DNA of 64,000 nt from contig NZ_JACIDT010000016.1 in the NCBI RefSeq assembly GCF_014196495.1, positions 1-64,000 on the forward strand, read 5' to 3'. Positions 1,707-37,063 of the stretch are shown here, piece after piece (position 1 is the first letter of the stretch; every line of letters begins with the position of its first letter). The position numbers were made by a program, and so were the translations under genes. The notes under the pieces are model-generated. The model did no database searches. It saw only the letters and a list, made by a program, of their open reading frames with translations, and was not told the DNA's origin. The DNA comes from Sphingobium jiangsuense (lineage in GTDB: Bacteria > Pseudomonadota > Alphaproteobacteria > Sphingomonadales > Sphingomonadaceae).

Positions 1707-2390
1707 ATGTTCCGACGCCCCACCATCCGCTACGGGCAGACGCCCGAACCCACGACGCCCTACCAGCGCGCCGCCCAAGCCTGGGACGACCGCATCGGCT
1801 CTGCCCGCGTGCAGGCGAAGAACTGGCGGCTCGCCTTCTTTGGCTCGCTCGCTCTTTCGGGCGGCCTGGCCGGCGGGCTGATCTGGCAGTCCGCGCGCGG
1901 CCATATCGTACCGTGGGTCGTGCAGGTCGATCGGCTCGGCGAAGCGCAGGCGGTCGCGCCGGCCGAGGCCGGCTACCGTCCGACCGATCCGCAGGTGGCG
2001 TTCCACCTAGCGCGGTTCATCGAGCAGGTGCGCAGCATCCCGGCCGATCCGGTCATCGTCCGCCAGAACTGGCTCCGCGCCTACGATTTCACGACCGACC
2101 GCGGCGCGCTGGCGCTCAACGATTACGCCCGCGCCAACGACCCGTTCGCCAATGTCGGCCGCGTGCAGGTCGCGGTGGACGTGTCCAGCGTGATCCGCGC
2201 GTCGCCCGACAGCTTCCGCGTCGCCTGGACCGAGCGCCGCTATCAGGACGGCAGCCTTGCCGCCACCGAACGCTGGTCGGCGATCCTCACCGTCGTCGTG
2301 CAGCCGCCGCGAACGCCCGACGCCCTGCGCAAGAACCCGCTCGGCATCTTCGTCAATGCCCTCAACTGGTCAAAGGAGCTGTCGCAATGA
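1707..2390 (+). CDS. trbF: conjugal transfer protein TrbF (VirB8-like)
   Basis: An inner-membrane assembly factor of the P-type conjugation apparatus, homologous to VirB8. Its 227 residues comprise a short cytoplasmic N-terminus (with TPYQRAAQAWDDRIG), one transmembrane helix at about residues 45-65, then a periplasmic NTF2-like domain (the VQVDRLGEA and NPLGIFVNALNWSKEL segments are typical). Length fits the family. Its stop overlaps the start of trbG in an ATGA, so the two are translationally coupled. Confidence 0.95.
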   Translation: MFRRPTIRYGQTPEPTTPYQRAAQAWDDRIGSARVQAKNWRLAFFGSLALSGGLAGGLIWQSARGHIVPWVVQVDRLGEAQAVAPAEAGYRPTDPQVAFHLARFIEQVRSIPADPVIVRQNWLRAYDFTTDRGALALNDYARANDPFANVGRVQVAVDVSSVIRASPDSFRVAWTERRYQDGSLAATERWSAILTVVVQPPRTPDALRKNPLGIFVNALNWSKELSQ

Positions 2391-3403
2391 CGCGCCCACC
2401 GTTTCCCCGCGTCGCATCGGCGGCGCTGATCGCCTCCGCAGCCGCGCTCGCCGGCTGCGCCACCACGTCCGCCCGGCCGCCCGCAATCGCCTACGACGAT
2501 CCGCCACGCGAGATCGCAGCGACGCCCGCGCCCGAAGCGCCACGCGCGGTCGAGGTGGTAACGATCCCCGAGCCGCTGCCGCTGCCCGGCCAGTTGAAGC
2601 CGGTCGGCGAATCCGCATCGCCGCCCGAGCCTGCCGATCCGCGCCGCCGCGTCGGCGCCGCCAACGCCGCCGCCCGTGTGCAGCCGGTGCGCGACGGGTT
2701 CCTCAACGCCATCCAGCAATATCCGTGGACCGATGGTGCGCTCTATCAGGTCTATACCGCGCCCGGGCAGGTGACGGACATTGCCTTGCAGGAAGGCGAG
2801 CAGCTCGTCGGGCCGGGGCCGGTCGCGGCCGGGGATACTGTGCGCTGGATTATCGGCGACACGATCAGCGGCAGCGGCCCGACCGCGCGCGTTCATATCC
2901 TCGCGAAGCCCACGCGGCCCGACATCGCAACCAACCTCGTCATCAACACCGACCGCCGCACCTATCACCTCGAACTGCGCGCGACGCCTTCGACCTACAT
3001 GGCGTCGGTGTCCTGGACCTACCCGCAGGATCAGCTCATCGCGCTGCGGAGCGCCAATGCGGCGGCAGCCACCGCTGCGCCGGTGGCGAGCGGCGTGGAC
3101 GTGTCCGCGCTCAATTTCCGCTATCGGATCGACGGCGAGCGAGCGCCGTGGCGTCCGGTCCGCGCGTTCGACGATGGCCGACAGGTCTTCATCGAGTTTC
3201 CGGCCGGGATCTCGCAGGGCGAGATGCCGCCGCTGTTTGTAGCCGGTGCGGCCGGCGACGCCGAGCTGGTCAATTACCGCGTGCAGGGCCGCTACATGGT
3301 GGTCGATCGCCTGTTCGCCGCCGCAGAGCTGCGGCTGGGCGATCGGCGCAGTGAGCAGCGCGTCCGCATCGCGCGCAATGATGGACGGGAGCGGCGGCCG
3401 TGA
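2387..3403 (+). CDS. trbG: conjugal transfer protein TrbG (VirB9-like lipoprotein)
   Basis: Outer-membrane-associated core component of the conjugation channel, VirB9 family. The ATG at 2387 overlaps the trbF stop by 4 nt and gives 338 residues. A lipoprotein signal (lipobox LAGC, about residues 21-24) is followed by a Pro-rich linker. The VirB9 domain then runs from about residue 95 (FLNAIQQYPWTDGALYQVYTAPGQ) to the end (RIDGERAPWRPVRAFDDGRQ; YRVQGRYMVVDRLF). It overlaps trbI by 4 nt (GTGA). Confidence 0.95.
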   Translation: MTRPPFPRVASAALIASAAALAGCATTSARPPAIAYDDPPREIAATPAPEAPRAVEVVTIPEPLPLPGQLKPVGESASPPEPADPRRRVGAANAAARVQPVRDGFLNAIQQYPWTDGALYQVYTAPGQVTDIALQEGEQLVGPGPVAAGDTVRWIIGDTISGSGPTARVHILAKPTRPDIATNLVINTDRRTYHLELRATPSTYMASVSWTYPQDQLIALRSANAAAATAAPVASGVDVSALNFRYRIDGERAPWRPVRAFDDGRQVFIEFPAGISQGEMPPLFVAGAAGDAELVNYRVQGRYMVVDRLFAAAELRLGDRRSEQRVRIARNDGRERRP

Positions 3404-4626
3404 ACGATCGCACCGACATGCCTGCCGCTGATCCGGCTCCGTCGCCGGCTCCTGCCGATCCGAGGCCATTCCAGCTCAGGGGCGACCCGCCGCGCGTGAT
3501 GCGGCTGTCGCGCAAGGCGCTGACCGTCATGGGCGTCGTCGCCGGGCTCGGCATCGGCGGCTCGCTGATCTACGCCCTCAAACCGGCCAGCGAGCGGCAG
3601 GCGGAAGAACTCTACAATACCGAGAGCCGCGCCACGGCCGAGACCATCACGTCGGGTCCGCGGGACTATGCGCAGGCGCCGCGTCTCGGCCCGCCGCTTC
3701 CGGGCGATCTCGGCCGGCCGATCGTGTCCGCCCAGCAGCGCGGCGAGAATGTGCCGGTGCTGCCGGTCGGCGCGCAGCCGGGTCAGCCTGACCCGCGCGC
3801 GCAAGCAGAGGAAGCTGCCCGGCAGCGCGCGCAGCAGGAGCGCGACTCCGCTCGCATGAGCAGCGTGTTCCTCGGCGGCAATGCGGGCAACAGCGGGACG
3901 GCGGGTCTCCCGTCGGTGGCCCTGCCGGGGCAGGCTGCGCCGCAGCCGGCGCAGCAGCAGGCGGCCGCCGCCGAGGGCGATCAGGCCGGGAAGCGGGCGT
4001 TCATGGCGCAGGCGTCGAACCAGCGCACGGTGAGCGTCGAGCGGCTAAGCGCGCCAGCATCGCCCAATATCGTGCAGGCCGGAAGCATTGTGCCCGCAGC
4101 CCTCATTACCGGCATCCGCTCCGATCTTCCCGGCCAGATCACCGCGCAGGTCACGCAGAACGTTTATGACAGCCCGACCGGCCGCATCCTGCTCATCCCG
4201 CAGGGCGCGCGGCTGATCGGCGAATATGACAGCGAGATCGCAGCCGGGCAGACGCGGGTGCTGTTAGCCTGGGACCGGCTCATCATGCCGGACGGCCGCT
4301 CGATCGTTCTCGAGCGCCAGCCCGGCGCCGATGGCGCGGGGTTCGCGGGCCTCCAGGATCAGGTCAATCAGCATTGGGGCAACCTGCTGAAGGCCGCTGC
4401 TATCTCGACGCTTCTCGGTGTGGGGTCCGAACTCACAACCAGCGGCGACGACTCTCTGAGCCGAGCGCTGCGCTGGGGCACGCAGGGGACCATCAATCAG
4501 ACGGGCCAGCAGGTCGTGCGTCGGCAGCTTAACGTGCAGCCGACGCTCACCATCCGGCCTGGCCATCCGCTGCGCGTGATCGTCACCCGCGACCTCGTCC
4601 TCGAACCAATAGGTGAAACGCGATGA
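3400..4626 (+). CDS. trbI: conjugal transfer protein TrbI (VirB10-like)
   Basis: The VirB10 homologue that spans the envelope and links inner and outer parts of the T4SS. It has 408 residues from a GTG start coupled to trbG. One transmembrane helix lies at about residues 45-63 (ALTVMGVVAGLGIGGSLIYAL), then a Gln/Ala/Pro-rich periplasmic linker, then the TrbI/VirB10 domain from about residue 215 (GSIVPAALITGIRSDLPGQ; GRILLIPQGARLIGEYDSE; NQTGQQVVRRQ; GHPLRVIVTRDLVL). It overlaps the DUF2274 gene by 4 nt. Confidence 0.95.
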   Translation: MNDRTDMPAADPAPSPAPADPRPFQLRGDPPRVMRLSRKALTVMGVVAGLGIGGSLIYALKPASERQAEELYNTESRATAETITSGPRDYAQAPRLGPPLPGDLGRPIVSAQQRGENVPVLPVGAQPGQPDPRAQAEEAARQRAQQERDSARMSSVFLGGNAGNSGTAGLPSVALPGQAAPQPAQQQAAAAEGDQAGKRAFMAQASNQRTVSVERLSAPASPNIVQAGSIVPAALITGIRSDLPGQITAQVTQNVYDSPTGRILLIPQGARLIGEYDSEIAAGQTRVLLAWDRLIMPDGRSIVLERQPGADGAGFAGLQDQVNQHWGNLLKAAAISTLLGVGSELTTSGDDSLSRALRWGTQGTINQTGQQVVRRQLNVQPTLTIRPGHPLRVIVTRDLVLEPIGETR

Positions 4627-4847: not shown

Positions 4848-4862
4848 CCACCTTGTGCGCGC

Positions 4863-5171
4863 TCAGTTGCCGAGAAAGCGCCTCCGACGCTCCTCCGCAT
4901 CCACCTTGATGATCGCCTCCTCGGCATTGGCGCATTCTCCGCCTCGCACAGTGCCGTCGCGGCAGCCGGCCACGACTTGGCGCGCCTCGTCTATATGCGA
5001 CATGAAATACTGAGTACCGCGCGCCTGGCTGGACGCTGGAGCTACCGGCGACGTGAACGTGTCGACGTCCGCCTGTTGCATCGGCGCGATCACGGGCCGC
5101 AAGATAAAACCTCCCGCAAATCCGATGAGCAATGTAACCAGAACGATGACGATTGTCCCAACCGAAAACAT
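4863..5171 (-). CDS. EexN-like entry-exclusion candidate, single-pass membrane protein
   Basis: The ATG at 5171 is chosen because GGAG lies 8 nt upstream; it gives 102 residues. An N-terminal hydrophobic helix covers about residues 1-25 (SVGTIVIVLVTLLIGFAGGF). The C-terminal part reads YFMSHIDEARQVVAGCR...GGECANAEEAI, the spacing of conserved residues seen in EexN/TrbK-type entry-exclusion lipoproteins (YFLxxPEEAxxxLxxC...ECxNAxxA). Unlike classical EexN it has no lipobox. It follows lysR on the same strand and faces the trb operon. Role (blocking redundant conjugation) is inferred from the motif and setting. A longer start at 5201 is possible. Confidence 0.55.
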   Translation of the reverse strand: MFSVGTIVIVLVTLLIGFAGGFILRPVIAPMQQADVDTFTSPVAPASSQARGTQYFMSHIDEARQVVAGCRDGTVRGGECANAEEAIIKVDAEERRRRFLGN

Positions 5172-5202
5172 GGTGGTCACTCCATAAACCTGCCTAGCCA
5201 TT

Positions 5203-6126: not shown

Positions 6127-6146
6127 CGGCTCGCGTCTCACATCCG

Positions 6147-8678
6147 CTAGCGCGCAGCGCTGCTCGGGGACGCGGGCGACCGAGCACGCCTCTGTTGGGG
6201 GTCGGCATAGGCCAACAGTCGCAGCGCGTTGAACACGACCAGCAGTGTCGAGCCTTCGTGGACTGCAACAGCAGGTCCGATGCCGAGCCCGAGGATCGTC
6301 GCCGGCACGAGAAGCGCGACCACGCCAAGGCTGACGAATACATTCTGCCGGATCACGGATCGCGTCCGGCGGCTCAGGCCGACCGCGAAAGGGAGATGGT
6401 CGAGATTATCGGCCATAAGGGCAACGTCGGCGGTTTCGAGCGCCACGTCCGATCCCGCCGCACCCATCGCAATGCCCACGGTCGCCGTCGCCATGGCGGG
6501 CGCGTCGTTCACACCGTCGCCTACCATCGCGACCTTAGCTTCGGCGCGGAGCTTCTTGATCGCGTCCACCTTGTTTTCGGGCAGGAGATCGCCCCAAGCC
6601 TCGTCAAGTCCCACGTCCCGAGCGATGGCTTCGGCAGCAAGCTGGTGATCCCCGGAGATCATGATCATCCGCCGGATGCCGATCGCGCGCAGCCGTTCGA
6701 GCGCCTCGCGTGCTTCCTCACGGGGCGTGTCGAGCAATCCGATCACGCCTAGATCCCGCTCGCCGCGACGGACGATCATGATTGTCTGGCCGGTCTCGCG
6801 CAGCAGCGGGAGCATGTCGTGCATCCCCTGCGAGAGCGGAGCGATGCCGTCGGCGCCAAACATCTCGGCCTTGCCGATGAGAACCTCGTCCTCACCGATG
6901 ACGGCCGAGACGCCGCGGCCCGTAAGGCTCTTCAGACTCTCCGCCTGCGGAACCTGACGCTCGCCGATATGATCGCGCCCGTCGCGCGCGATGGCTTGCG
7001 CAAGCGGGTGATCGCTCAGCGATTCAACCGCCACGGCCACCGCCATCATATCCTCCCTGGATACGCCGGGCGCGGTGACGACCTGATGGATGCGCGGCTC
7101 GCCCTTGGTGAGCGTGCCGGTCTTGTCGAAGGCGATCGCGTCGAGCGAACCGAGCAGTTCGAGCGGCGCGCCGCCTTTGATCAGCACGCCGCCCCGAGCC
7201 GCTCGCGCGACTCCGGAGAGAACGGCGCTGGGCGTGGCGATGGCGAGCGCGCAGGGGCTTGCCGCAACCAGCACCGCCATTGCGCGATAGAAGCTGTCGC
7301 GGAACGGCTCATCGACCACGACCCAGGCGAACAGCAGGATGAAGGCCAGCGCCAGCACCGCAGGCACAAAGAAGCGCTCGAACCTGTCGGTGAACCGCTG
7401 CGTCGGAGACTTCTGCGTTTCGGCCTCGCTGACCAGCTTGACCACCTTGGCGAGCGTGCTTTCGGTGGACAGGCGCGTGACCTCGATCTCGACGAGACCG
7501 CTGCCATTGATGGTGCCGGCGAACACCCTGCTTGCCGCGTCGATCCGGTCGGGATCGGCGCGGGCGGCCGCATCATCCAGCACGGGACGCTTGTCCACCG
7601 GCATACTCTCGCCCGTCACCGGCGCCTGGTTGATGGCGGTGATGCCTTTCACGACAAATCCATCCGCGGCCACACGCTCGTCGGGCTTCACGACGACGAT
7701 TTCGCCGACCTTCAAATCCTCGACCGGAACATCGCTCGTGCCGCCGTCGGAGCGGCGCACGGTAGCGGTGCGCGGCGCCAGTTCGGCCAGCGCCTCGATC
7801 GCGCGCTTGGCGCGGCCCATGGCATAATGTTCGAGCGCATGGCCGAGGCTGAACAGGAACAGCAGCAGCGCGCCCTCGGCCCAGGCGCCGAGCGCCGCCG
7901 CGCCGGCGGCCGCCACCAGCATCAGCGTGTCGATCTCGAAGCGTTTCAGCCGGAGATTGTCGATCGCCTCGCGCAGCGTGTAGAAGCCGCCGAACAGATA
8001 GGTGGCCACGTAGAGCGTAAACGGCAGCCAGGCCGGCGCGCCCGCCACCAGCTTCTCGATTGCGAATCCGATCCCCAGGGTCGCGCCGCAGGCGAGCGCA
8101 AAGATCAGTTCGGTATTGGCCCCGAGCAGACCGCCATGCGCGTAATCGTGACCGTCGTCGGGGCCATGCTCCCGCTTCGGTTGCGCAGGGCCATCGACAT
8201 GGCGGGCATGAGCATCTGCCGCCGCCGGCACAGGTCTGGGCGTTGCGCCGAGCTTCGTCAGTTCAGCGCTGATGTCGTCTCGGGAGAGCTGATCGCGATC
8301 ATATTCGATGCGCACCATGCCGGCGGCCGAGGCGTCCGCTTCGATCACACCGGACAGGGCGCGAAGGCTTTCGGTGACCGTGCGCGCGCGGCGTGCGTGA
8401 CCGATGCCATCGACCTCCCAAAGGATATGCCCGTAGCGGTCCGCGATTTCCGCTCCCGAGGCATGGGCGAGTTCGCGGATGCGTGCGAGCGTCACCACTT
8501 GCGGGTCGAAATGGACGCACAGCGTCGCAGGGCTGGCGGCGTCGGCCGCGACCACATGCGCCTGCTCGACACCGGGCCGGTCCTTAAGCGCCGCGACGAG
8601 CCTGCCGACGCAGGCATCGGCCGCATCGGTGACGTCGGGGAGAAGTATGGGGATTTCGAGGCGGAGCTTTTCGATCAT
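6147..8678 (-). CDS. heavy-metal P-type ATPase, P1B-4-like (SPC/HEGST signatures)
   Basis: An inner-membrane metal-exporting ATPase of 843 residues. Visible motifs in order: TGES actuator loop, ASPCALAIATPSA in the membrane, DKTGT phosphorylation site, GDGVNDAPA hinge, and HEGST near the C-terminus. The SPC plus HEG(G/S)T pair marks the P1B-4 group (Co/Ni/Zn/Cd), not CPC-type Zn/Cd or Cu pumps. The N-terminal ~150 residues look like two HMA folds without any CxxC, followed by a His-rich linker (about residues 155-180). It lies in a minus-strand cluster with czcCBA and a CDF transporter. Metal specificity is inferred. Confidence 0.9.
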   Translation of the reverse strand: MIEKLRLEIPILLPDVTDAADACVGRLVAALKDRPGVEQAHVVAADAASPATLCVHFDPQVVTLARIRELAHASGAEIADRYGHILWEVDGIGHARRARTVTESLRALSGVIEADASAAGMVRIEYDRDQLSRDDISAELTKLGATPRPVPAAADAHARHVDGPAQPKREHGPDDGHDYAHGGLLGANTELIFALACGATLGIGFAIEKLVAGAPAWLPFTLYVATYLFGGFYTLREAIDNLRLKRFEIDTLMLVAAAGAAALGAWAEGALLLFLFSLGHALEHYAMGRAKRAIEALAELAPRTATVRRSDGGTSDVPVEDLKVGEIVVVKPDERVAADGFVVKGITAINQAPVTGESMPVDKRPVLDDAAARADPDRIDAASRVFAGTINGSGLVEIEVTRLSTESTLAKVVKLVSEAETQKSPTQRFTDRFERFFVPAVLALAFILLFAWVVVDEPFRDSFYRAMAVLVAASPCALAIATPSAVLSGVARAARGGVLIKGGAPLELLGSLDAIAFDKTGTLTKGEPRIHQVVTAPGVSREDMMAVAVAVESLSDHPLAQAIARDGRDHIGERQVPQAESLKSLTGRGVSAVIGEDEVLIGKAEMFGADGIAPLSQGMHDMLPLLRETGQTIMIVRRGERDLGVIGLLDTPREEAREALERLRAIGIRRMIMISGDHQLAAEAIARDVGLDEAWGDLLPENKVDAIKKLRAEAKVAMVGDGVNDAPAMATATVGIAMGAAGSDVALETADVALMADNLDHLPFAVGLSRRTRSVIRQNVFVSLGVVALLVPATILGLGIGPAVAVHEGSTLLVVFNALRLLAYADPQQRRARSPASPSSAAR

Positions 8679-8732: not shown

Positions 8733-9182
8733 TCAGGGCGGTGCGGTATTGGACCTGAGCCGCGTGCAGGTCAGGGGCGGCGCATCGGGGCGCAACAGCG
8801 TCATCCGATCACCGCCGGAGAGCGACACGTTGAGCTTGTCGCCCACGAAGGTGAGGCCGGTGGCCGGCGCGACCAGCCGCACCGAACGACCATCCGGCAG
8901 AATCGTGAGATCGAGGGTCAGGCCGTCGGCGAGGAAATCGGCGTCCACGCGCGATCCATCGGCGCAGGCATAGATATGTTCGCCAACGAGATTGGAGACG
9001 GAGCGACGGTCATGCCGCTCGCCCGCATCCTTGTCGTTGGAAGCGGGCGAGCAGCCGGACAGGCCGGGCGCAAGCGCGAGCCCAGCTAGCGCGAGGAGCA
9101 CAGGACGACCGCGCGTCGGCGTCCTTGCTCTCCATCCTCGCCGGAATCGTTCGCCATGGGCGCTCAAGGGGGCGGCGCCCAT
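8733..9182 (-). CDS. MliC-like lipoprotein
   Basis: A small exported protein with lipobox LSGC preceded by a hydrophobic stretch (LLALAGLALAPG). The mature part (YACADGSRVDADF...GDKLNVSLSGGDRMTLL...LTCTR) has the paired Cys and strand pattern of the MliC family (membrane-bound lysozyme inhibitor, C-type). The ATG at 9182 leaves a long basic leader before the hydrophobic core, so the true start may be internal. It lies between the zinc-finger gene and the ATPase gene. Why an MliC protein belongs in a metal cluster is unclear; inhibition of lysozyme is family knowledge, not shown here. Confidence 0.65.
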   Translation of the reverse strand: MGAAPLSAHGERFRRGWRARTPTRGRPVLLALAGLALAPGLSGCSPASNDKDAGERHDRRSVSNLVGEHIYACADGSRVDADFLADGLTLDLTILPDGRSVRLVAPATGLTFVGDKLNVSLSGGDRMTLLRPDAPPLTCTRLRSNTAPP

Positions 9183-9246
9183 GGCGCGGGCCGTTCTCAC
9201 ACCTTCACCCGAAGGGCCCGTGGTGCGGCGGCCAATCCACAGCATC

Positions 9247-9549
9247 TCAGTCGAACAGTTCGCTCAGGAAGCTCTTGCGGCGATGATGGCCGCGCTCGTA
9301 GCCGTGCTTCCTGTCATGATCGCCGCGCCCGCGATGCTCGTCGAACATGCCGAGCCGGCCGCCGCTCGACCGGCGGGCCGCTTCGTCGCCGGCGCTCCGC
9401 TCGATGATCTTGTCGAGTTCGCCGCGATCGAGCCAGACGCCGCGGCATTGCGGGCAGTAGTCGATCTCGATGCCCTGGCGCTCGCTCATGACGAGATCGA
9501 CGCGACAGGCTGGACACAACAGACTCGTTGAAGTGCGGCCTTCTACCAT
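9247..9549 (-). CDS. TFIIB-type zinc-ribbon protein
   Basis: A 100-residue protein from the ATG at 9549, chosen for AAAGGA 7 nt upstream. The N-terminal zinc ribbon has two CxxC knuckles (LLCPACRVDL and DYCPQCRGVWLDRGELDKI), the signature of the zf-TFIIB family. The C-terminal half is rich in His and Arg (GRGDHDRKHGYERGHHRRKS) and ends in FLSELFD. It is cytoplasmic with no signal peptide. The His-rich tail may bind metal, which suits its place beside CDF and RND efflux genes. Its function is not established. Confidence 0.8.
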   Translation of the reverse strand: MVEGRTSTSLLCPACRVDLVMSERQGIEIDYCPQCRGVWLDRGELDKIIERSAGDEAARRSSGGRLGMFDEHRGRGDHDRKHGYERGHHRRKSFLSELFD

Positions 9550-9598
9550 GATGGCATCCTTTCTTCTTCGGCTTGGGGGGAGTGAATGGTGGGAGGCC

Positions 9599-10207
9599 TC
9601 ATTCCTTTGCCTCCCTGTCCCGGCGCGCTTCCTCTCGCGCATCGCGCAGGATCTCGACGCCACCCTTGACGGCGATGGCCGCGGCAAGCAGCCCGACCAG
9701 CAGATCGGGCCAGTTGGAGCCGAGCCACCAGACCAGCAGGCCGGCGATCAGGATTCCGCCGTTCGAGATGAAATCGTTGAAGCTGAAGGTCGTCGCGGCG
9801 CGCAGGTTGACGTCGGGCTCGCGCAGCCGTTGCAAGAGCTTGAGGCAGATGAAGTTGACCACAGCCGCGACCGCAGACATCGCCATCATGGTGATGCCGA
9901 TCGGCTCGCTGCCTTGCAGGTAACGTCGTCCGACATCGAGCATGATGCCGCCGGCGAAGATCAGGAGCATGACCCCCGACACGGCGGCCGCGCGGGTCTT
10001 CCATTTCGCGCCTCGGCTGAGCGCGATCAGGCTCAGTGCGTAGACCGCCGCGTCCGAGAGATTGTCGAGACCGTTGGCGAGCAGCGCGCTGGAATCGCCA
10101 CTGATCCCAGCGATCAGGAAGGCCAAGGCGATCCCGACGTTGAGCATCAGCACGATCCAGAGCGTGCGGCGCTCGGCGGGCGCGCCCGCGGATGCAGGGT
10201 CAGTCAT
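9599..10207 (-). CDS. cation diffusion facilitator (CDF) family transporter, no C-terminal domain
   Basis: About six transmembrane segments in 202 residues from the ATG at 10207. TM2 carries the metal-site pattern DxxxD (LDNLSDAAVYALSLIAL). The equivalent region of TM5 (TFSFNDFISNGGILIAG) has the Asp but not the usual His four residues earlier. The cytoplasmic C-terminal domain of ordinary CDFs is missing: the protein ends with a short charged tail right after TM6. It overlaps the SRPBCC gene by 8 nt. Substrate is probably Zn, Cd, Co or Ni from context. Confidence 0.8.
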   Translation of the reverse strand: MTDPASAGAPAERRTLWIVLMLNVGIALAFLIAGISGDSSALLANGLDNLSDAAVYALSLIALSRGAKWKTRAAAVSGVMLLIFAGGIMLDVGRRYLQGSEPIGITMMAMSAVAAVVNFICLKLLQRLREPDVNLRAATTFSFNDFISNGGILIAGLLVWWLGSNWPDLLVGLLAAAIAVKGGVEILRDAREEARRDREAKE

Positions 10208-10700
10208 TGGCGGCCTTTCGGGTGAGCTGGGCCTTGCGGGCACGCCGGCGCTGGCGGTTGATGGTGAGGCTGCTGCCGCGCGCTTCCCTGGTGAGGTAGC
10301 GGAGCAGCGCCGCATCCTGCGCGCGCATCGATCTGCGCAGGCCTCGCCGCACGAGATAACCAAGCGGGCTCAGCGCGCCTTCCATCCTGACCGTATGGCG
10401 AACCTGCGTCTGCGGGCCGGCCTCTTCGAGCGCATATTCCTCGCTCAGCGTGAACAACCCGCCGAGGCCGATCCGCCAGGCGAACCGTTGTGCCCGTTCG
10501 TAGGCGACGATCGTGGCTTCGGTTCTTAGCGGCAGTTCTCCCTTGAGCATGCCGAAGGTCAAACCGACTTCGGCGTGTGGGGTAGCGACGCGGCGAAAGC
10601 GATAGGTCGGATGCCACAGTGCGAACGCGGCCAGATCGGCGATATAAGTCCAAGCCCGGATCGGCGTGATGGTCAGGGCGAAAGCGGTGATCTCCTTCAT
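10200..10700 (-). CDS. SRPBCC (START/Bet v 1-like) family protein
   Basis: A cytoplasmic 166-residue protein with the SRPBCC helix-grip pattern: an N-terminal strand (ITAFALTITPIRAWTYIADLAAFALWHPTYRF), a central sheet (ERAQRFAWRIGLGGLFTLSEEYALEE) and a long C-terminal helix (YLVRRGLRRSMRAQDAALLRYLTREA). The last 25 residues are very basic. Such proteins bind hydrophobic ligands, but none can be named. It lies between czcA and the CDF gene on the same strand and overlaps the latter. Confidence 0.75.
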   Translation of the reverse strand: MKEITAFALTITPIRAWTYIADLAAFALWHPTYRFRRVATPHAEVGLTFGMLKGELPLRTEATIVAYERAQRFAWRIGLGGLFTLSEEYALEEAGPQTQVRHTVRMEGALSPLGYLVRRGLRRSMRAQDAALLRYLTREARGSSLTINRQRRRARKAQLTRKAAND

Positions 10701-10800
10701 GGTCCGCGCCCCTCTTCGCTGGTGGGCCTTGCGGCGGACGGCATAGCCGCCCGCCGTTCAGCCCGGACGGCGAAGACAAGGGTGCGATGATTGTCGAGAC

Positions 10801-13800
10801 TCACAGCGGAGCCTCGACCGGATCAGCAGGTGGCGCGTCGTCCCGCTCCTCCCGTGCCGGGATATCCGTTTCCCTGCGCCCATAGCGGGCGTAGAGCGTC
10901 GGCAGCACGAACAGCGTGAGCAGGGTCGCCGAGATCAGGCCGCCGATCACCACGGTGGCGAGCGGCTTCTGCACCTCCGCGCCCGATCCGGTGGCGATCG
11001 CCATCGGCACGAACCCGAGGCTCGCCACCAGCGCGGTCATGACGACCGGCCGCAGCCGCATCATCGCGCCCTCGCGCGCGGCCCGTGCCCGGTCCATGCC
11101 TCGCGCCATCAGGTCCTGGATCGAGGAGACCATGACCAGGCCGTTCAGCACCGCGATGCCGGACAGGGCGATGAACCCGACCGCCGCCGAGATCGAGAAC
11201 GGCATCCCTCGCAGGAACAGCGCAAGCACGCCCCCGACCAGCGCCAGCGGCACGCCGGTGAACACGATCGCCGCGTCGCGCACGCTGCCCAATGCCCCGT
11301 ACAGCAGCAGGATGATGAGCGCGAAGCAGGCCGGGACCACCAGCATCAGCCTTTGACTGGCCGACTGGAGGTTCTCGAACTGGCCGCCCCAATCGAGATA
11401 TTGCCCTGCCGGCAACCGGACTTGGGCGTCGATCGCGGCCTGGGCGTCGGCGACGACGCCCGCCACGTCGCGCCCGCGCACGTTCGCCTGGACGACCACG
11501 CGGCGCTTGCCGTTCTCGCGGCTGATCTGGTTGGGACCGTCGGTGACGCCGATCTCGGCGACGCTTTGCAGCGGGACGAACCCACCGTTCGGCAAGGGCA
11601 CCGGCACCTGGCCGAGCGTTTGCAGATCGGCGCGCGCCGCATCCGACAGGCGGATGGTCACGGCGAACCGCCGGTCCCCTTCGAAGATCATCCCGGCGTC
11701 GCGGCCGCCGATCGCCGCCGATATCGTGTCCTGCACGGTCTGTGCGGTGATGCCGAGCCTCGACATGATGTCGCGGCGCGGGCGGATGTCGAGCATCGGC
11801 AGGCCCTCGGTCTGCTCGACCCGGACATCGGTCGCGCCCCGCGTCTGGCGCAGGATCGCCGCGATGCGGTTGGCGGTCGCGGTCATCGCGTCGGTGTCGT
11901 CGCCGAACACCTTGATCGCGATGTCGCCCCGCACGCCCGCGATGAGCTCGTTGAACCGCATCTGGATCGGCTGGCTGATCTCGAACGCGCCGCCGGGCAG
12001 CCCTTCCAGCACCCGCTCGACCTTCGCCACCAACTCGGCCTTGGAGAGGTTCGGGTTGGGCCATTCATCGCGCGGCCTCATGATGATGAAGGTGTCGGAG
12101 ATGTTGGGCGGCATCGGATCGGACGCGAGTTCCGCGGTGCCGGTCTTGGAGAAGACGAACCGCACCTCCGGCAGCCGCCCGATCTGCCGTTCGATGCGTG
12201 ACTGCATCGCCTGGCTCTGATCGACCGAGGTGCCGGGGATACGCAGCACCTGGGCGGTGAGGTCGCCTTCGTCGAGCTGAGGCAGGAACTCCTGGCCGAG
12301 AAACGAGAAGGTGAGGATCGCGGCGAGGAATGCGCCGACCCCGACCCCCATGGTGAGGGTCGGCCGCTTCATCGCCCGATCAAGACCCGGCTCGTACCGG
12401 CGCTTGAGCCAGGACATGATGCGGCCTTCCTTCTCCTCGACCGGCTTTGAGAGCCAGATCGCGAGCATCGCCGGCACGAAGGTGAGCGAGAGCACGAAGG
12501 CGCAGACGAGCGCGATGATGACGGTGAGCGCCATCGGCGTGAACGTCTTGCCCTCGACGCCGGTGAGCGTCAGCAGCGGGACATAGACGAGGATGATGAT
12601 CGCCTGCCCGAACACCGACGGGCGGATCATCTCGCGCGCGGCCGTCGCGACGACCGACAGCCGCTCGTCGAGGCTGAGCGTGCGGCCATAGTGATGCTGC
12701 CGCTCTGCGATGCGCCTGAGCGCATTTTCAACAATGATGACGGCGCCATCGACGATCAGGCCGAAGTCCAGAGCGCCAAGGCTCATCAGGTTGGCCGAGA
12801 CGCCGCCGCGCAGCATGCCAAAGCTGCTCATCAGCATGGTGATCGGGATCACCAGCGCCGCTATCAGCGCGGCCCGGAAGTTGCCGAGCAGCACGAACAA
12901 CACGACGATGACGAGCAGCGCGCCTTCGGTGAGATTCTTGGCGACCGTCTTGATGGTCGAATTGACCAGCGCGGTGCGGTCGAGCACCGGCTGCACCACG
13001 ACATCGGTCGGAAGCGAGGCGTTGATCTCTTTCAGCCGCTCGGCGACTGCCGATGCGACGGTGCGGCTGTTCTCGCCGATCCGCATGATCGCCGTGCCGA
13101 CAACCACCTCCTCCCCATTCTCAGACGCCGAGCCGTAGCGGATCGCCTGTCCCAGGCGGACCTGTGCGACCTGATCGAGCCGGATCGGCACGCCTTCGCG
13201 CGTCGCGATCACGGTGCTCGCCAGCTCTCCGACATTGCGGATGCGTGCGTCCGAGCGGACTGCCAGACCTTCGCCGCCGCGGTTCACGACGCCGGCGCCC
13301 ACGCCGACATTGTTCTCTTCGAGCGCGCGGGCGAGGTCGGACAGGTTCATGCCGATGGCGGCGAGGCGCTGCACGTCCGGCACGACCTGGAACTGCTTCA
13401 CATAGCCGCCGATCGAGTCCACGCCGGCGAGGCCGGGCGTGTTCCTGAGCAGCGGAGCGACGATCCAGTCCTGCGCGGTGCGCAGATAGGTCGCCTTGTC
13501 GGCTTCGGTGACGAGCCGCTCGCCTTCGGGCGTGATGTAGCTGCCGTCGGGCTGGATGCCCGGCTCGCCGGGCCGGTGCCGGTCCTCCCGGCGATGTTCG
13601 AGATGGACCGTCCACATATAGACTTCGCCGAGGCCGGTCGCGATCGGCCCCATGGTCGGGACCGCACCCTCGGGCAGGCTTTCCTCGGCGACCCGCAGCC
13701 GCTCGGCAACCTGCTGGCGGGCGAAGTAGATGTCGGTCGAATCCGAGAAGACCGCCGTGACCTGCGCAAAGCCGTTGCGGCTCAGCGACCGCGTGTATTC

Positions 13801-17226: not shown

Positions 17227-18642
17227 CTACATGAAGAATCGGAACTGGTAGGGCGTGCTGCCCAGATTCGTCATGCGCTTAAGGACACGCGCAAGAACCT
17301 TCGCATAGCTCATCGTTACGGGTAGCGGATCATACAGCCCGTCGTTGTTCCAGTTCATCTTCGACAAGGCGAGTGCCGCGCGGGCGCTGTCGTCCCACGT
17401 GCCGTGCCCGGCATGGCGGACAAGTCGGATCGGACGCGGCGTGCCGCGTTGACCCTGAAAATAGGTTTTCGGCCCAAGAGTCTCGACGGCACCGTGCATC
17501 CACAGCAGCGCCTCGCGCTCGCCAAGCCCGATCAATGAGCCGCGCTTGACTGGAAATGCCGCCGCCTGACCTCCCGGATTGGCCTGATCGCGTTCCCAAC
17601 GCGCGCCGCGCCAGCCCACATCCTCGACAACCTGAATCAAGTCGACCGCCTCGCACAGCGGCAACGCCTCGAAGCAGCCGAGCACTTCGGCGTCTTTGAA
17701 CTCGGTCGACTTGTGGACCATCACCCGGCGTGGTGAGCGTCCACCATGTCGGTGACGATATAGCGTCATCGACCGCGTGATGACCCGGAACATCTCGGCC
17801 TGTGATAAAAAGGGATTGTCGCGCTGCACCTGCACGTCGGCGGTGTCGTAGGCGATAAATTCGAGGCCAGCGCCCTCCGCGTCGAACACCTGGCTGCAAC
17901 AGGTCACAAACCGCGGTTTGTCGGCACCGTTCGACCGCACCGCATAGGAAATGCCGATATAGGCGGTCTCTGGATCGACATCGGCTAGCTTCCAGGGAAC
18001 GCCGCCGGCCTTGGCATATAGCGCCAGGCCCACTCGCCACATCACGCTCGCACGGCAGCGATAAGCGAGTGCCTTGTCTTCACGCACGATCTGGATCGGC
18101 ATCCCGCGCGCGGCCGTGTAAGCCTTGAGATGGTCGTGGAGATCGAAATCGTCCCCCACGCCGTAGAAGCCACGCTCCCATCGCTGCGGCAGGTAGATGA
18201 ACAAGACATCGAACTCGCTACGGAACGCTTCAAGCGGCTGGATTGCACGGACGAGCTGTTCAGCGAGCAACACGTGCGGCATCGCCGATTGTGCCATCTC
18301 GCTCTCAAACGATCCGTCCAGCTCGACACGGCATTTCTTGGCTGCCGCCGTCACGCGCATGTCAAACACCGTATTGAAGCCCGGCCAGTCCGGCAGATAG
18401 TCGGTTCGCTCGACCGGGCGCACGCTTTGGCTCAGCTCGCGCATGAACGCGAACAGGCGTTCTGACTCGCCGGCCGGCGCCAATGTCGCCACTCGGATCG
18501 GTGATTGCACCAATCCGCGCGAATGGGGGCCGAAACGCTTGAGCCCGCGCAGCGGATGGATGTCGCGTTCGCTCGTCCGCTCGGGATGAAACACCAGCTC
18601 GGGCTCGGGATACCATATGGTGGGCGCGATCTCGCTCGTCAT
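17227..18642 (-). CDS. short prokaryotic Argonaute (MID-PIWI, catalytically inactive)
   Basis: At 471 residues it has the size of short pAgos, with MID and PIWI lobes only and no PAZ domain. The MID region around residues 180-220 includes MPIQIVREDK...YRCRASVMWRVGLALYAKAGG, holding the basic and aromatic residues that grip a guide 5' end. The first PIWI strand reads YIGIS (228-232), with Ser where slicing Argonautes have the first catalytic Asp. VMVHKSTEF (308-315) is the conserved PIWI HKT-like segment. It is therefore predicted to bind guide and target without cutting. The ATG overlaps the stop of the SIR2-APAZ gene by 4 nt, so both are translated as a pair, as in SPARSA defence systems. 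Confidence 0.9.
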   Translation of the reverse strand: MTSEIAPTIWYPEPELVFHPERTSERDIHPLRGLKRFGPHSRGLVQSPIRVATLAPAGESERLFAFMRELSQSVRPVERTDYLPDWPGFNTVFDMRVTAAAKKCRVELDGSFESEMAQSAMPHVLLAEQLVRAIQPLEAFRSEFDVLFIYLPQRWERGFYGVGDDFDLHDHLKAYTAARGMPIQIVREDKALAYRCRASVMWRVGLALYAKAGGVPWKLADVDPETAYIGISYAVRSNGADKPRFVTCCSQVFDAEGAGLEFIAYDTADVQVQRDNPFLSQAEMFRVITRSMTLYRHRHGGRSPRRVMVHKSTEFKDAEVLGCFEALPLCEAVDLIQVVEDVGWRGARWERDQANPGGQAAAFPVKRGSLIGLGEREALLWMHGAVETLGPKTYFQGQRGTPRPIRLVRHAGHGTWDDSARAALALSKMNWNNDGLYDPLPVTMSYAKVLARVLKRMTNLGSTPYQFRFFM

Positions 18643-20372
18643 GGCTGCACCAGCTTAGAGAAGGCCGTGTTCTTCCCAACCGCGAAGCGCGCATCAATCC
18701 CGTCGCCAATCGAAAGCGCCGGAAGCGCTTCGCCGGCGAGGTGCTTTGCCCAAAAGTCGATGAGCCGATCCAGGTCACGATTATAACGCTTCACCGTCCG
18801 CTCGCGCGCGAAGTCGGCGGTGATCGCCTTAGTCTCGTCTGTTACGCCCTCGAACACGATCTTTGGATCAAGCAGCAGCCACAGACCGTCGTCCGCCCAG
18901 TCAAGCCGGACCCCGACCCCCTCGTGCCATTTCAGGTTCGGGTGTTTGGGCACAGCGCCAGTCGTCTGACGAGTTATCCCGCGAAGCCCATCCCATGCGC
19001 TGTCGGCGGGATCTACTGGCACGAGCAAATCAGCGCTACGGCGGCGGATCGCACGAACATTCTTGGCGGCACACAGCGCCTCTACCAAGGCGTCGCGTAG
19101 CAGGCCGCGTTCGCCAGACTCATAGCGCAGGCGCCGCTTTTCGAAGGTGGCCAGATCAAAAGCAGTGATTCCGAACGGGTCGAACACTCGATGGAACTCA
19201 GCATCGCTTCCGAAGCCGAGCACCCCCGCTTGGGTGCGGGTTACGATCAGGCGCGCGTTGGCCTCGGCGACCGCCGCGCGCGCCGCCGCGACACCCTCGA
19301 TCGTGCATACCAGCTTGCGGCAATTGGCCGGGATGGTGACGGCAAGCCCATTGAGCCGAATGAGGGGCCAGCCTCGCTGGCCCGAGGGCTCGGGAGCGCC
19401 TGACACGCGCGACCGTCCCGTTGCCAGCGCGTTGAGAGCAGATGTGTCGAGCGCGGGCAGCAGCCGCACCAGATCACGTAATATCTCGTCGAAGCTCTCA
19501 ATCCGCACCAGCCCGCATTCAACACCCGCGTCGTTGGCGCACTTGAGAAGTCGGATGACCCGTTCAAGCGGTGGATCGCTACCGCGATGCAGCCAGAACA
19601 GTCCACCAGGATAACCGCCCGGCTGATCGAGTGCCGCTTCAAGTGCGTCCATCACTGAATCGTCGCGTCCGCTGTAGCCGGCGACTACGAGGCCGGATCG
19701 GCGGCAGGCATCCACGAGCTGCTGACGAAGCGCGGCATCCTGCTGGCGCAGCTCATCGGTTGTGTTTTTAAGCCGACGCGAGCGGAAATCGCCGTGCAAC
19801 TTTACTGCGATCGGCCATTTCTGCGCGCCGATCAATTGCCCTGCCAATTCCGGAGCGTCGAGTGCAACGATGCTCAACGTGCCCGTTGTGCCATACGTTC
19901 TCGCGCAGGCATCTTCTATCAAGTGGTCGAAATTGGTAGTCCAGACGAGTTGAGTGTGGCCCGCTTTTAGAAGTGACGCGAGAGCAAGATGGCCATAGGC
20001 CAGCTTCGCGCCGCTAATCATGCCTTGAATGAAAGTCGTGCGGTCGCGCTCCACCGGGTAGGTTGCTTCGAACAGCGCCGCGTATTCGTCCGGCGAACCC
20101 GGCGGGGGTAGTCGCTCGGAACTCGCAATATGCGAGTCCAACAACGCGCGGATAGCCGGATTGCCGAGATCGGCGACACTCTGCGGCGACGCCTTGCGCT
20201 GGGCGATGAATAAGGTCTGCTTGAACTGCCAGATCATATCCCAAGCGCTTGGAATACCAGCGGACACTGACGCGCCCGCGCCGAGCAACCACATCAACTG
20301 GCCTGGTCGCAGCGCAAAGCGCCGCGCAAAATCATCGCTCGATAGCTCGCTCAGGCTCGTTATGCTCTCCAT
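18639..20372 (-). CDS. SIR2-APAZ effector of a short-Argonaute (SPARSA) defence system
   Basis: A 577-residue two-part protein. The N-terminal SIR2-like NAD-binding domain has GAGAS (31-35), TTNFD (145-149, candidate catalytic Asn147), KLHGD (191-195, candidate His193) and GYSGRDDSVMDAL (232-244). From about residue 315 to the end lies the APAZ region that substitutes for the missing Argonaute N and PAZ lobes. In characterised SIR2-APAZ/Ago pairs the complex is guided by RNA to invading DNA and then depletes NAD+, killing or arresting the cell. All SIR2 catalytic motifs look intact here. It is coupled by a 4-nt overlap to the Argonaute gene and is preceded by a 145-nt gap that may hold its own promoter. 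Confidence 0.9.
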   Translation of the reverse strand: MESITSLSELSSDDFARRFALRPGQLMWLLGAGASVSAGIPSAWDMIWQFKQTLFIAQRKASPQSVADLGNPAIRALLDSHIASSERLPPPGSPDEYAALFEATYPVERDRTTFIQGMISGAKLAYGHLALASLLKAGHTQLVWTTNFDHLIEDACARTYGTTGTLSIVALDAPELAGQLIGAQKWPIAVKLHGDFRSRRLKNTTDELRQQDAALRQQLVDACRRSGLVVAGYSGRDDSVMDALEAALDQPGGYPGGLFWLHRGSDPPLERVIRLLKCANDAGVECGLVRIESFDEILRDLVRLLPALDTSALNALATGRSRVSGAPEPSGQRGWPLIRLNGLAVTIPANCRKLVCTIEGVAAARAAVAEANARLIVTRTQAGVLGFGSDAEFHRVFDPFGITAFDLATFEKRRLRYESGERGLLRDALVEALCAAKNVRAIRRRSADLLVPVDPADSAWDGLRGITRQTTGAVPKHPNLKWHEGVGVRLDWADDGLWLLLDPKIVFEGVTDETKAITADFARERTVKRYNRDLDRLIDFWAKHLAGEALPALSIGDGIDARFAVGKNTAFSKLVQP

Positions 20373-20517: not shown

Positions 20518-21132
20518 TCATTCGGGCGGTGCTGGCAGCCGATGGGGAGCCTCATAGGCTTCTAGCTGCCACGGCCCCTGATAGTTCTCGATGATGCCCT
20601 CGGTCGGCACGGGCATGCGGGCAATGAGCGCGATTTGCCCGAGGCACCGGCTCAGGTGTCCGCGCAAGATTTCGAGACCGTCGAAATAGGCTTGGCGCAC
20701 GTCGGGCGGTCGATGAAACTCGCCGAACCGTGGATGCAGGGGCGCATCCTTGTCTCGCCGCAACAGCTCCTCGAAAGTCATAAACTGTCGAATCCCAGCC
20801 GCCATCGCTTCAAGCAGAAGGAACAGCGGTCCGTCCTGCAATTCGGCGAGTTCCACCTCTTTGTCGACGATAAATTGGCGGATTTCGTTGAGCGAGGTGA
20901 GGGCTTTCTCGATGCAATCGTCACAACATTCCCACGCGGATAGGACACGCCGATCGCGCAAACGGAGGACGATCTCGCGCGCCACCCGGCGCTCGCGATC
21001 TTGAGGGCTGACCGCAATGCTGATGAAAGGCAAGTTCAAGGTGACGTCCCCCAGCCGGCCAGTGACTTGGCGGCGAGCGCGGGCGAGGAGATCGGTCAGA
21101 TCGAACTTGAAGGGGATATCGCCACTTCGCAT
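20518..21132 (-). CDS. hypothetical protein, second gene of the defence-module operon
   Basis: I do not recognise this 204-residue cytoplasmic protein. It begins with a strand-rich part (VTLNLPFISIAVSP), then a mostly helical middle with a Cys cluster (WECCDDCIEKAL, Cys69, Cys70 and Cys73). A hydrophobic helix (GPLFLLLEAMAAGIRQFM) and a C-terminal helical part (AYFDGLEILRGHLSRCLGQIALIARM) follow. It starts 3 nt after the stop of the upstream nuclease-like gene, so the two are almost certainly one transcript, and the SIR2-APAZ/Argonaute pair follows on the same strand. A defence-accessory role is inferred from position only. Confidence 0.7.
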   Translation of the reverse strand: MRSGDIPFKFDLTDLLARARRQVTGRLGDVTLNLPFISIAVSPQDRERRVAREIVLRLRDRRVLSAWECCDDCIEKALTSLNEIRQFIVDKEVELAELQDGPLFLLLEAMAAGIRQFMTFEELLRRDKDAPLHPRFGEFHRPPDVRQAYFDGLEILRGHLSRCLGQIALIARMPVPTEGIIENYQGPWQLEAYEAPHRLPAPPE

Positions 21133-21135
21133 GGT

Positions 21136-22083
21136 TCAGACCTCGTCCGGCAGGGTAATTGATGCGGCGAGAGCCGCTCCAATGGGGCCCGATCGGCGTT
21201 CGAGGAAATAGCGGACGCGATCGTCGTTGCTGTCATCGAATTGCTGTCCAACCTGACAGGTCAGCAGCAGATCGGCAGCCCAAGTTTCGAGCGGCCAATC
21301 CCGCCCAACGCAGGCGGACTTCAACAGGCTGAAGGTAGGAGATTGGCCGTCATTGAGTTCTGCAAGGGCACGGTGGACGTTGTCGGCATCGACCACCCGA
21401 TTTCCAACCGGAATGTCGTCAACGCGGATTCGTTGTCGCAGGGGATAGGTAATTGCGTAGGGAAGCTCAGGCGGTGCGTAGAGCAGGTAGAAGACGGCCT
21501 TGCCGAAATCCCGATTGAGCGTGTCGATCAGCTCGACCTGTCGGTGTCCAGCCTGGATTGCGGCGAAGGTGCAGCTTTCGTCGAAGCTGTAGGTTCGGTG
21601 GAGCGCGGCGGCTGCTTGCTGCCCGTCGCGGCGGATGAATGCATTCATGCCATGAAGGAAGCCAATTTCATCCTCGTCCTCGACATCATGGTTGGTCGGA
21701 AAGAGGCGCTTGGACTGGAGCAGGCCAATCTTCTTCGCCACCAGCTTGTCGCGTCGATAGACGAAGACGAGGATCGCAATATCCGCCGTTTCCCAACGCC
21801 GGCGTTGCGGAAAGTCCCAATCCCAATGGGGAGCGCCTAAGCGCCGCAAACCACCGATGTTGTGAGTATCCATGCGGATGATCGCACCCGAAGGAAGGAG
21901 CGTCGGCGCGCTGTCGGGGATCAGCGCTTCAATCAAACCGTCATCGAGCGATGTCTCGCGGATGTTGGGGAGATTGACCAGACGTTCGCACACGCGGCGG
22001 TTTGCGTCCGCGAAGACACCGCGGAACCAAGCGACAACATCGGCGGGTATCACTGGCCAAGGATTCAATCTGGTTCCCCTCAT
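21136..22083 (-). CDS. putative PD-(D/E)XK-like nuclease, first gene of the defence module
   Basis: No family name can be given with certainty. The ATG at 22083 gives 315 residues; the open frame continues to a TTG at 22116. The pattern RETSLDDGLIEALI (helix with Glu43), then WETADIAILVFVYRR (Asp101), then KIGLLQSKRL (Gln123-x-Lys125) is the E...D...QxK arrangement of PD-(D/E)XK restriction-type nucleases in which Gln replaces the second acid. The C-terminal half (from about residue 165, LHRTYSFDESCTFAAIQAG) is unknown. It is the first of four minus-strand genes ending in the Argonaute. Nuclease activity is an inference from motif spacing. Confidence 0.6.
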   Translation of the reverse strand: MRGTRLNPWPVIPADVVAWFRGVFADANRRVCERLVNLPNIRETSLDDGLIEALIPDSAPTLLPSGAIIRMDTHNIGGLRRLGAPHWDWDFPQRRRWETADIAILVFVYRRDKLVAKKIGLLQSKRLFPTNHDVEDEDEIGFLHGMNAFIRRDGQQAAAALHRTYSFDESCTFAAIQAGHRQVELIDTLNRDFGKAVFYLLYAPPELPYAITYPLRQRIRVDDIPVGNRVVDADNVHRALAELNDGQSPTFSLLKSACVGRDWPLETWAADLLLTCQVGQQFDDSNDDRVRYFLERRSGPIGAALAASITLPDEV

Positions 22084-26261: not shown

Positions 26262-27044
26262 GACGTTTTCCTTGGGTTGATCGCTTGGATCATTTTCGAC
26301 CGGCGTTTCGCGGCTGCCGCGTCACCGTCCCATCGATGTGCACAGTGGCGTCGCGAGGCGAGGGCCGTTCTCAGGCTTCAACTAGCGCTGCTCCTTGTTC
26401 GTTCCTGGCGGCGTGAACAAATGCGGCAAGATCGACGTCCCTCAAGGACCGTGGGGTGCGGGGCCGCGGTCGGAGTCATCGCAATGCGTCAAGGAACCGA
26501 TCGGAACCAGATCGTCCCCGCGGCACCCCACCGGCCGTTCGAAGGCTTTGCCGACGCCGTCTTCCCGATCGCGCTGAGCCTGCTGTCAAGCCGCCCGGCA
26601 GCCCGATGAATCCGGCCGGTTGGCCAATCTCGCCGGCAAGGTCGGCCGCGCGTTGATTGCCAAGGCGCCAACATTCATGAAGCATCGCCCACAATCGAGC
26701 ACGCCAAGGTGTCGAAGTGCGAGCGGCAAGGTTAAGCGGCGGAGGCCGCTAATCGGCGGTGCTCGGCGGGTCTAGGGTAGTATGAATGGCGAAATGTATT
26801 CGTTATGTTTATCCGGTGCGGGGCGCCAAATACCGCCGACTGCCGCCGTCTTCTACGCAGGAACCGCGATGGCTATGATCGGCGAAATCGCTGGGAGTTC
26901 AACGTAGTAGGCGCAGCGGTGCGCTTCGGCGATGCCGTTCGAATCGCTCCGGGTGAAACGAACCTAACGGGCGTCATTCACCTCGAGGCGATGCTGTACT
27001 TCCGTCACGAGGCGTGAGGGTTGTGCTGCCCGCAAACCCGATCA
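26262..27044. other. intergenic region with Xer-like site 3
   Basis: 783 bp with no supported gene between the enzyme cassette and the copper module. The left ~500 bp holds only short open frames with no recognisable content. The dif-like site is at 26786-26813. About 150 bp after it resembles the stretch after site 1 (GCGCCAAATACCGCCG, then CTATGATC, GTTCGAATC near 26938 and GGGTGAAAC). Confidence 0.55.
26786..26813 (+). repeat. dif-like (XerC/XerD-type) site 3
   Basis: Left arm ATGGCGAAATG, spacer TATTCG, right arm TTATGTTTATC (right arm identical to sites 1 and 4). Left flank TCTAGGGTAGT matches the other copies. It separates the enzyme cassette from the copper module. Confidence 0.65.
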
Positions 27045-36991: not shown

Positions 36992-37019
36992 ACGGCGAAA
37001 TATATTCGTTATGTTTATC
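36992..37019 (+). repeat. dif-like (XerC/XerD-type) site 4, right end of the accessory region
   Basis: Left arm ACGGCGAAATA, spacer TATTCG, right arm TTATGTTTATC. Left flank TCTAGAGTAGT matches the other copies. To the right the similarity lasts only through GCGCGGGGCGCCA (to about 37034) and then stops, unlike sites 1 to 3. This is what an element-chromosome junction would look like. Confidence 0.65.
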
Positions 37020-37063
37020 CTGCGCGGGGCGCCATTTTCTTCAAAGGAAAACAAGGGTATAGC

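Follow-up and report, generated by a model that had tools for sequence, protein, structure and literature searches.

The locus described here raises the question of whether two genes adjoining an Argonaute operon belong to that operon or form a unit of their own. The window, by which we mean the whole stretch of 64,000 nucleotides analysed, is the beginning of contig NZ_JACIDT010000016.1 of Sphingobium jiangsuense. An earlier note on this DNA had proposed that a nuclease-like protein (here P0001) and a smaller protein (P0002) either extend the neighbouring Argonaute system to four genes or represent a second, undescribed defence system. According to PMC10781750, SPARSA is an operon of an Argonaute (pAgo) and Sir2-APAZ. 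The adjoining SPARSA pair reported in the earlier note is indeed present, as both of its genes match PADLOC models (Table 1), and the region 17227-20372 holds a short pAgo and a SIR2-APAZ in one operon, separated from P0002 by 145 bp. As set out below, the four-gene Argonaute system turned out to be the poorer fit of the two proposals and the second, undescribed defence unit the better one.

Both open reading frames lie where they had been placed, on the minus strand, the ATG of P0002 following the stop codon of P0001 after 3 nt. The length of P0001 needs correction: the frame stands, but the ATG at 22083, which gives the claimed 315 residues, is less likely to be the true start than TTG 22068, five codons inside that frame, because relatives start near there and AGGGGA is found just 5' of it. 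The longest frame opens at 22116. A GAGG in the 3' end of P0001, directly before the P0002 ATG, is consistent with co-translation of the two genes. They are real genes under purifying selection, with dN/dS values of 0.04-0.09 for P0001 (four of five comparisons finite; dS was saturated in the fifth, against L015) and 0.06-0.23 for P0002 (also four of five finite, the fifth, against L060, being saturated). Between 16900 and 22500, promoter consensus sites numbered 0 against 1.5 expected and terminator-like sites 3 against 4.7 expected.

Table 1 Features of the window discussed in the text
Feature	Position	Strand	Details
Conjugation genes of carrier ICE	1707..4626	+	VirB8-like 1707-2390, TrbI 3400-4626
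Att-like direct repeat, pAgo side of four-gene segment	17026..17109	+	84 nt
Short Argonaute (pAgo) of SPARSA	17227..18642	-	PADLOC Argonaute model match
SIR2-APAZ of SPARSA	18639..20372	-	PADLOC associated SIR2 model match
P0002, helical partner	20518..21132	-	204 aa; C69-C70-D71-x-C73, H159, C163 conserved
P0001, predicted PD-(D/E)XK nuclease	21136..22068	-	310 aa from TTG 22068
Att-like direct repeat, P0001 side of four-gene segment	22254..22337	+	84 nt
Third att-like direct repeat, composite island end	26766..26849	+	84 nt
Last att-like site	37003..37033	+	18-mer, then GGGGCGCCA

The proposal that P0001 is of the PD-(D/E)XK type was borne out by its predicted fold (AlphaFold2, VIA) and by residue conservation. 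E43, D101, Q123 and K125 sit in the protein at the positions given before, and none of the four varies among 12 non-redundant full-length rows, that is, the window protein and 11 relatives, the partial L010 as well as L001 and L004 being set aside. These rows are 30-89% identical to one another and 43 of the 290 gap-free columns are invariant, so that the chance of all four pre-named residues falling in invariant columns is about 4e-4. The invariant columns also include D47, H74, G77, W97, E98, K118 and R126. The AlphaFold2 model (seven rows; mean pLDDT 74, pTM 0.78) has a core of helix 43-54, strands 68-75, 100-110 and 113-126, helix 182-193 and strand 197-202. Thus, E43 belongs to the helix that precedes the sheet, a strand begins with D101, and Q123 and K125 fall in the strand that follows, which is the layout of a PD-(D/E)XK enzyme, with the acidic residue in helix 1, the D in strand 2 and the (D/E/Q)xK in strand 3 that define the motif.

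Foldseek gave no significant match with this model (best E 1.7) and no E under 0.76 against viral models. VIA, a second look at Foldseek's candidates, had PD-(D/E)XK enzymes as 24 of the 29 entries listed (5 RecU, 8 Hjc-type, 2 SPARDA, 8 PvuII and 1 SfiI, an assignment which we take to be established knowledge), and these 24 rows represent about five protein families, many being repeat structures of a few proteins. RecU, Hjc, the SPARDA nuclease, PvuII and SfiI share the PD-(D/E)XK fold. Their Z values were 7.6 for RecU, up to 7.1 for Hjc, 4.3 and 3.5 for SPARDA, 3.8 for PvuII and 2.8 for SfiI, in a range (under 8) where, by the tool's own caution, a match may reflect merely a common arrangement. 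The top three rows were Rep15 (Z 9.4-8.7), by name no nuclease, and two further entries also fall outside the PD-(D/E)XK enzymes. Since several nuclease families agree and the motif is invariant, P0001 is likely, if not proven, to be a PD-(D/E)XK nuclease, as predicted from sequence and model. The glutamine in place of D or E is no obstacle, because the DREN effector of SPARDA, as described in PMC12205087, has a PD-(D/E)XK fold with catalytic D41, Q60 and K62, of which D41 and Q60 coordinate magnesium.

Sequence searches with P0001 found no match in Pfam, PADLOC (2023 set, E up to 1) or NCBIfam, and none among PDB sequences. PHROGs gave no family for P0001 and three relatives and, for L052, only E 0.0024 over 16 residues. 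Seven relatives of P0001 and one of P0002, run against Pfam at E up to 10, produced a single match, at E 0.12. No literature was found for the accessions or locus tags of three plasmid relatives or of the Schlafen-Argonaute discussed below, and a text search on stand-alone PD-(D/E)XK defence nucleases retrieved nothing on the subject. The P0001 family, with its D...QxK signature, is apparently undescribed.

For P0002, the reported CCDDC cluster is present (C69, C70, D71, D72, C73) but not conserved as a whole: C69, C70, D71 and C73 are invariant in six rows, together with H159 and C163, and D72 varies. The three cysteines with H159 and C163 were considered as a candidate zinc site. The model of P0002 consists of helices and has low confidence (pLDDT 58), and its structural matches are helical bundles of all sorts and hence uninformative. 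Searches of Pfam, PADLOC and NCBIfam returned only ARMET_C, which at E 0.17 was taken as chance; PHROGs gave only E 0.055 and 0.28, and nothing useful was found among PDB sequences, phage records or plasmids.

In the P0001 tree, from which the near-identical copies of L004 (L002, L003, L005-L007) and the contig-end fragments L012 and L013 were left out, P0002 is limited to one clade (window, L001, L004, L010, L008 and L011), apart from a fragment on a viral contig (L060); it also occurs in the near-identical copies. The support of this six-row clade is moderate (83/92, below the tool's mark of 95/80). P0001 was not found in the viral record of L060, which may be a fragment and was searched without a positive control. 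In nine of the 15 tree rows P0001 occurs without P0002, namely L009, whose genome was searched alongside genomes that did match, and G1096 (L051/L104), four plasmids and three viral contigs, for which the search yielded no match at all and had no positive control; the whole genome was covered in two rows, and the plasmid and viral rows refer to those records alone. Because P0001 occurs without it, P0002 looks like an addition in one alphaproteobacterial clade, optional for the P0001 family, instead of a requirement. This distribution also bears on the idea that the pair is a toxin-antitoxin module stabilising the integrative and conjugative element (ICE) described below, with P0001 as toxin and P0002 as antidote. 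Two small adjacent genes on an ICE, one with a predicted nuclease-type fold, would suit such a module, but the presumed antidote does not always accompany the toxin (also where the whole genome was searched) and the effector gene comes first, which makes this explanation very improbable.

Co-occurrence of the pair with and without SPARSA, the check that the earlier note had proposed, gave seven loci with and three without. Of the 13 P0001 loci, L001-L007 carry the pair and SPARSA, L008, L010 and L011 the pair only, and L009 P0001 alone; L012 and L013 are the contig-end fragments. Since the window and L001-L007 fall into two near-identical groups, the seven loci represent few independent cases. 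In L008, L010 and L011 the DNA match to the window stops at 20520, 20483 and 20508, respectively, which is level with the stop codon of P0002 or up to 35 bp beyond it, and on the other side of the pair it ends at 22068 (L008) and 22142 (L011). L010, with 96% protein identity, most resembles the copies that have SPARSA beside them, yet downstream it has a type IIG restriction-modification enzyme and other genes. On another contig of the same assembly, L013 comprises the first 62 residues of P0001 adjoining the same att site. We infer that the two contigs are the halves of one island end, and this genome's matching island end appears to carry the type IIG restriction gene in place of SPARSA.

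The reverse situation is found as well. Among the 396 genomes sampled from the order, 16 have a SIR2-APAZ match, which in 10 cases spans about 490 residues or more. P0001 is absent in eight of these 10 genomes, one of the eight matches being 58% identical, and in one genome of the eight (G374) a pAgo-like gene adjoins SIR2-APAZ, as judged by eye. The two genomes that do have P0001 are that of the window and G252, from which L001 comes and which has the same island type. Among plasmids, SIR2-APAZ was covered for at least 80% in three records, none of which is among the four P0001-bearing plasmid records. The pair was thus not found to be a constant component of SPARSA. Since the pair occurs without SPARSA in three loci, and SIR2-APAZ without P0001 in eight of 10 genomes, the two are separable, and the pair is no obligate part of SPARSA.

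These figures count against a further explanation, in which P0001 (with P0002) is an accessory Argonaute effector, a nuclease that would be freed in trans when the pAgo recognizes its target and that would provide a second arm beside NAD depletion. The four co-directional genes fill an att-bounded segment of 5.2 kb, and the pair and SPARSA occur together in seven out of seven loci L001-L007, although this co-occurrence shrinks to the two near-identical groups mentioned above. In addition, P0001 has the D...QxK triad of the SPARDA effector (PMC12205087), and bAgaN is a stand-alone PD-(D/E)XK partner of pAgos (PMC10620215). The wider family, to which we return below, also contributes to the weighing of this explanation.

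On the P0001 side, the end of the element that carries the genes shows TATTCGTTATGTTTATCC and, after it, GGGGCGCCA or a sequence close to it. There are four such att-like sites in the window, in one orientation (17057, 22285, 26797 and 37003), and the genome outside the window contains no further one at up to 2 mismatches. The P0001, P0002, SIR2-APAZ and pAgo genes occupy the segment between the first two, and the chromosome probably starts after the last. In L005 (Prosthecomicrobium), L006 (Pacificimonas) and L007 (Enterovirga), the unit sits at an end of an element of 44.2 kb, whose three copies are 99.96-99.97% identical and stop abruptly, and L004 has a related element of about 50 kb (98.3% over 33 kb). 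The other end of the element lies in tRNA-Arg genes (anticodons ACG, TCT and CCG), adjoining a 561-aa serine recombinase, and the insertion flanks differ between the host genera. Since the element encodes a TraG-type coupling protein, a T2SSE-type ATPase, ParB-like and TrbI-like proteins (the latter in L005 recognized by eye) and chromate resistance, the carrier would be a Trb-type ICE inserting at tRNA-Arg genes. The near-identity of the 44.2-kb copies reflects very recent transfer between distant genera. No tRNA was found in the window, which begins at contig base 1, and the tRNA end of its ICE probably lies beyond the contig start.

The cargo differs between the segments into which the four att-like sites divide the ICE end. 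Same-orientation site pairs also exist elsewhere, in G372 and G386, where they enclose genes that are by eye mercuric-reductase-like and copper-ATPase-like, respectively, and in G194. Such an ICE end might result from serial accretion at one att site or from in-trans mobilisation of segments.

The att sites would also be compatible with a recombination function, in which P0001 would be a nuclease resembling Holliday-junction resolvases, acting in integration, excision or recombination of the element, with P0002 as a DNA-binding or regulatory partner. RecU and Hjc are the top enzyme matches of the model, an att site adjoins the P0001 gene in 10 of the 18 P0001 loci scanned (near-identical copies counted), a tyrosine integrase gene adjoins the relative in L053, and relatives are present on viral contigs. 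On the other hand, the att 18-mer (up to one mismatch) occurs in 13 of 396 genomes, two of these (G078 and G027) being without the flanking repeat and thus probably chance matches, as opposed to two of 396 for P0001; moreover, relatives of P0001 accompany defence genes and are also found on plasmids that lack this att site. A role as resolvase is therefore improbable.

P0001 is rare, being detected in 2 of 396, 1 of 398 and 2 of 385 genomes, with the window's own genome included each time. Its neighbourhoods, which are to be read as contexts and not as an enrichment over random genes, are diverse. The relative on an actinobacterial (Rubrobacter) plasmid, L017, is 36% identical to P0001 and is followed after 190 bp, on the same strand, by a Schlafen-Argonaute gene for 1138 aa, which scores 1973 bits with a PADLOC pAgo model. 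This gene (3640-7056), annotated only as an RNA-binding domain-containing protein, combines Schlafen AlbA_2, HATPase_c_4 and Argonaute in one frame; fusion of Schlafen AlbA_2 domains to some long pAgos is described in PMC6299218. In L018, the MkoA gene of Mokosh adjoins the P0001 relative in divergent orientation, and in L009 a gene for a predicted pPIWI-associating nuclease (10988-11842) adjoins convergently; no pAgo is found near the latter gene, the sole pAgo match of that genome being on another contig. The contig of L054 also carries phage-like genes, and here genes for FRG (PDC-S15) and DUF2971 (PDC-S31) lie about 1 and 2 kb from the P0001 relative. The stretch 8862-12706 of this viral contig, with DUF2971, FRG and the P0001-like gene within 4 kb, is in itself a candidate phage-borne defence cluster.

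Other contexts are less telling. The neighbours of L008 (two proteins), L011 (two) and L052 (one) gave no clear match to PADLOC defence genes, those of L016 (four) and L053 (two) gave weaker ATPase-type matches only, and L015 is surrounded by metabolic genes. The surroundings of L104 are host-like by eye; its GC3 is 0.59, compared with values of 0.83-0.93 for the majority of the larger genes nearby. Searches of phage records with P0001, P0002 or the L054 relative, and of viral contigs with P0001 alone, gave nothing useful. Some side observations may be recorded here. The gene directly upstream of the relative in L016 (9086-9970) matches Tox-REase-9 weakly, at an E of 7e-4 that falls short of the Pfam cut-off; a 292-aa protein encoded near the pair in L011 (12823-13701) is restriction-endonuclease-like by eye (IECKNS), with no Pfam or PADLOC match; and the plasmid matches H44-H48 (Paraburkholderia fungorum, Rhizobium) are partial relatives of the L018 protein, covering 13-35% of its length and perhaps representing decayed copies.

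With respect to Argonautes, a search for pAgo found none in six of the nine genomes or records that carry P0001 relatives; of the three matches, the one in the L011 genome belongs to another island (L006) and the one in the L009 genome is that on the other contig. This argues further against an accessory Argonaute effector, which we consider unlikely. That explanation nevertheless keeps some weight because of L017, where the relative is directly upstream of a Schlafen-pAgo gene, and because bAgaN serves long-B Argonautes; the nuclease gene next to L009 also speaks for it. Given L017, the Argonaute linkage of the family may not be wholly accidental. It can even be envisaged, as a rather remote prospect, that the P0001 family is an interchangeable nuclease arm which was independently acquired by an alphaproteobacterial SPARSA, with P0002 as adaptor, and by a Schlafen-Argonaute of Actinomycetota. 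If so, one guide-triggered Argonaute would drive two kinds of effector, and destruction of nucleic acid would be added to a system that depletes NAD or has no effector.

The reading that we prefer, with a probability of roughly 50%, is that P0001 is a stand-alone mobile defence nuclease with P0002 as an optional partner, co-carried with an independent SPARSA. The genes, their conservation, the predicted fold, the separability and the location at an ICE att end are supported by what was computed here, and defence-type company is found at several P0001 loci (Schlafen-pAgo, MkoA, pAgo-associated nuclease, PDC-S31/PDC-S15 and type IIG). What we infer on top of this concerns the nuclease activity of P0001, its defence role, trigger and target, the function of P0002, and co-translation. 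The P0001 family would consist of free-standing PD-(D/E)XK nucleases on mobile elements that defend against phages or rival elements. P0001 might be produced in a latent form, which some signal of infection or of foreign DNA, perhaps sensed through P0002, would activate or multimerise, after which it could cut the nucleic acid of the invader or that of the cell at large. P0002, as a co-translated later acquisition, would most likely bind P0001 and gate or target it, and SPARSA would act as an independent NAD-depleting system on the same ICE end.

For defence research, this is a family whose members in the window match no 2023 PADLOC, Pfam or NCBIfam model, and its predicted catalytic residues offer targets for mutation. 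A natural comparison is also available, since the same pair adjoins SPARSA in some loci and, at what seems to be the same island end, a type IIG enzyme in another. The att-proximal end of the ICE may well be a place where defence modules are swapped, on an element that has moved nearly unchanged across alphaproteobacterial genera.

It is useful to compare P0001 with the systems that it resembles. Among enzymes, the core of the model matches the Holliday-junction resolvases RecU and Hjc best (Z 7.6 and 7.1), whereas at the sequence level P0001 has no match in Pfam or the PDB. The ExK motif of RecU and Hjc has E where P0001 has Q. The DREN of SPARDA, a short pAgo with DREN-APAZ, has the same D...QxK triad in a PD-(D/E)XK fold (PMC12205087); P0001 differs in being free-standing and in its C-terminal part, and no APAZ was detected in the full-length protein with Pfam or PADLOC. 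bAgaN (BPAN) is a separate PD-(D/E)XK nuclease partner of long-B pAgos (PMC10620215) and in this respect similar to P0001, but P0001 has no match to the Argonaute-associated nuclease profile of PADLOC (Aga_Nuclease, E up to 1) and six of the nine genomes or records searched that carry relatives gave no pAgo match. More generally, PMC6299218 lists SIR2, TIR, RecB2, DUF4365, Cas4, PLD and HNH nucleases in pAgo operons and predicts more PD-(D/E)XK members among pAgo neighbours, and some orthogroup of that study may include P0001. With SPARSA, finally, the pair shares adjacency, strand and an att-bounded segment, but it is neither needed by SPARSA nor confined to it.
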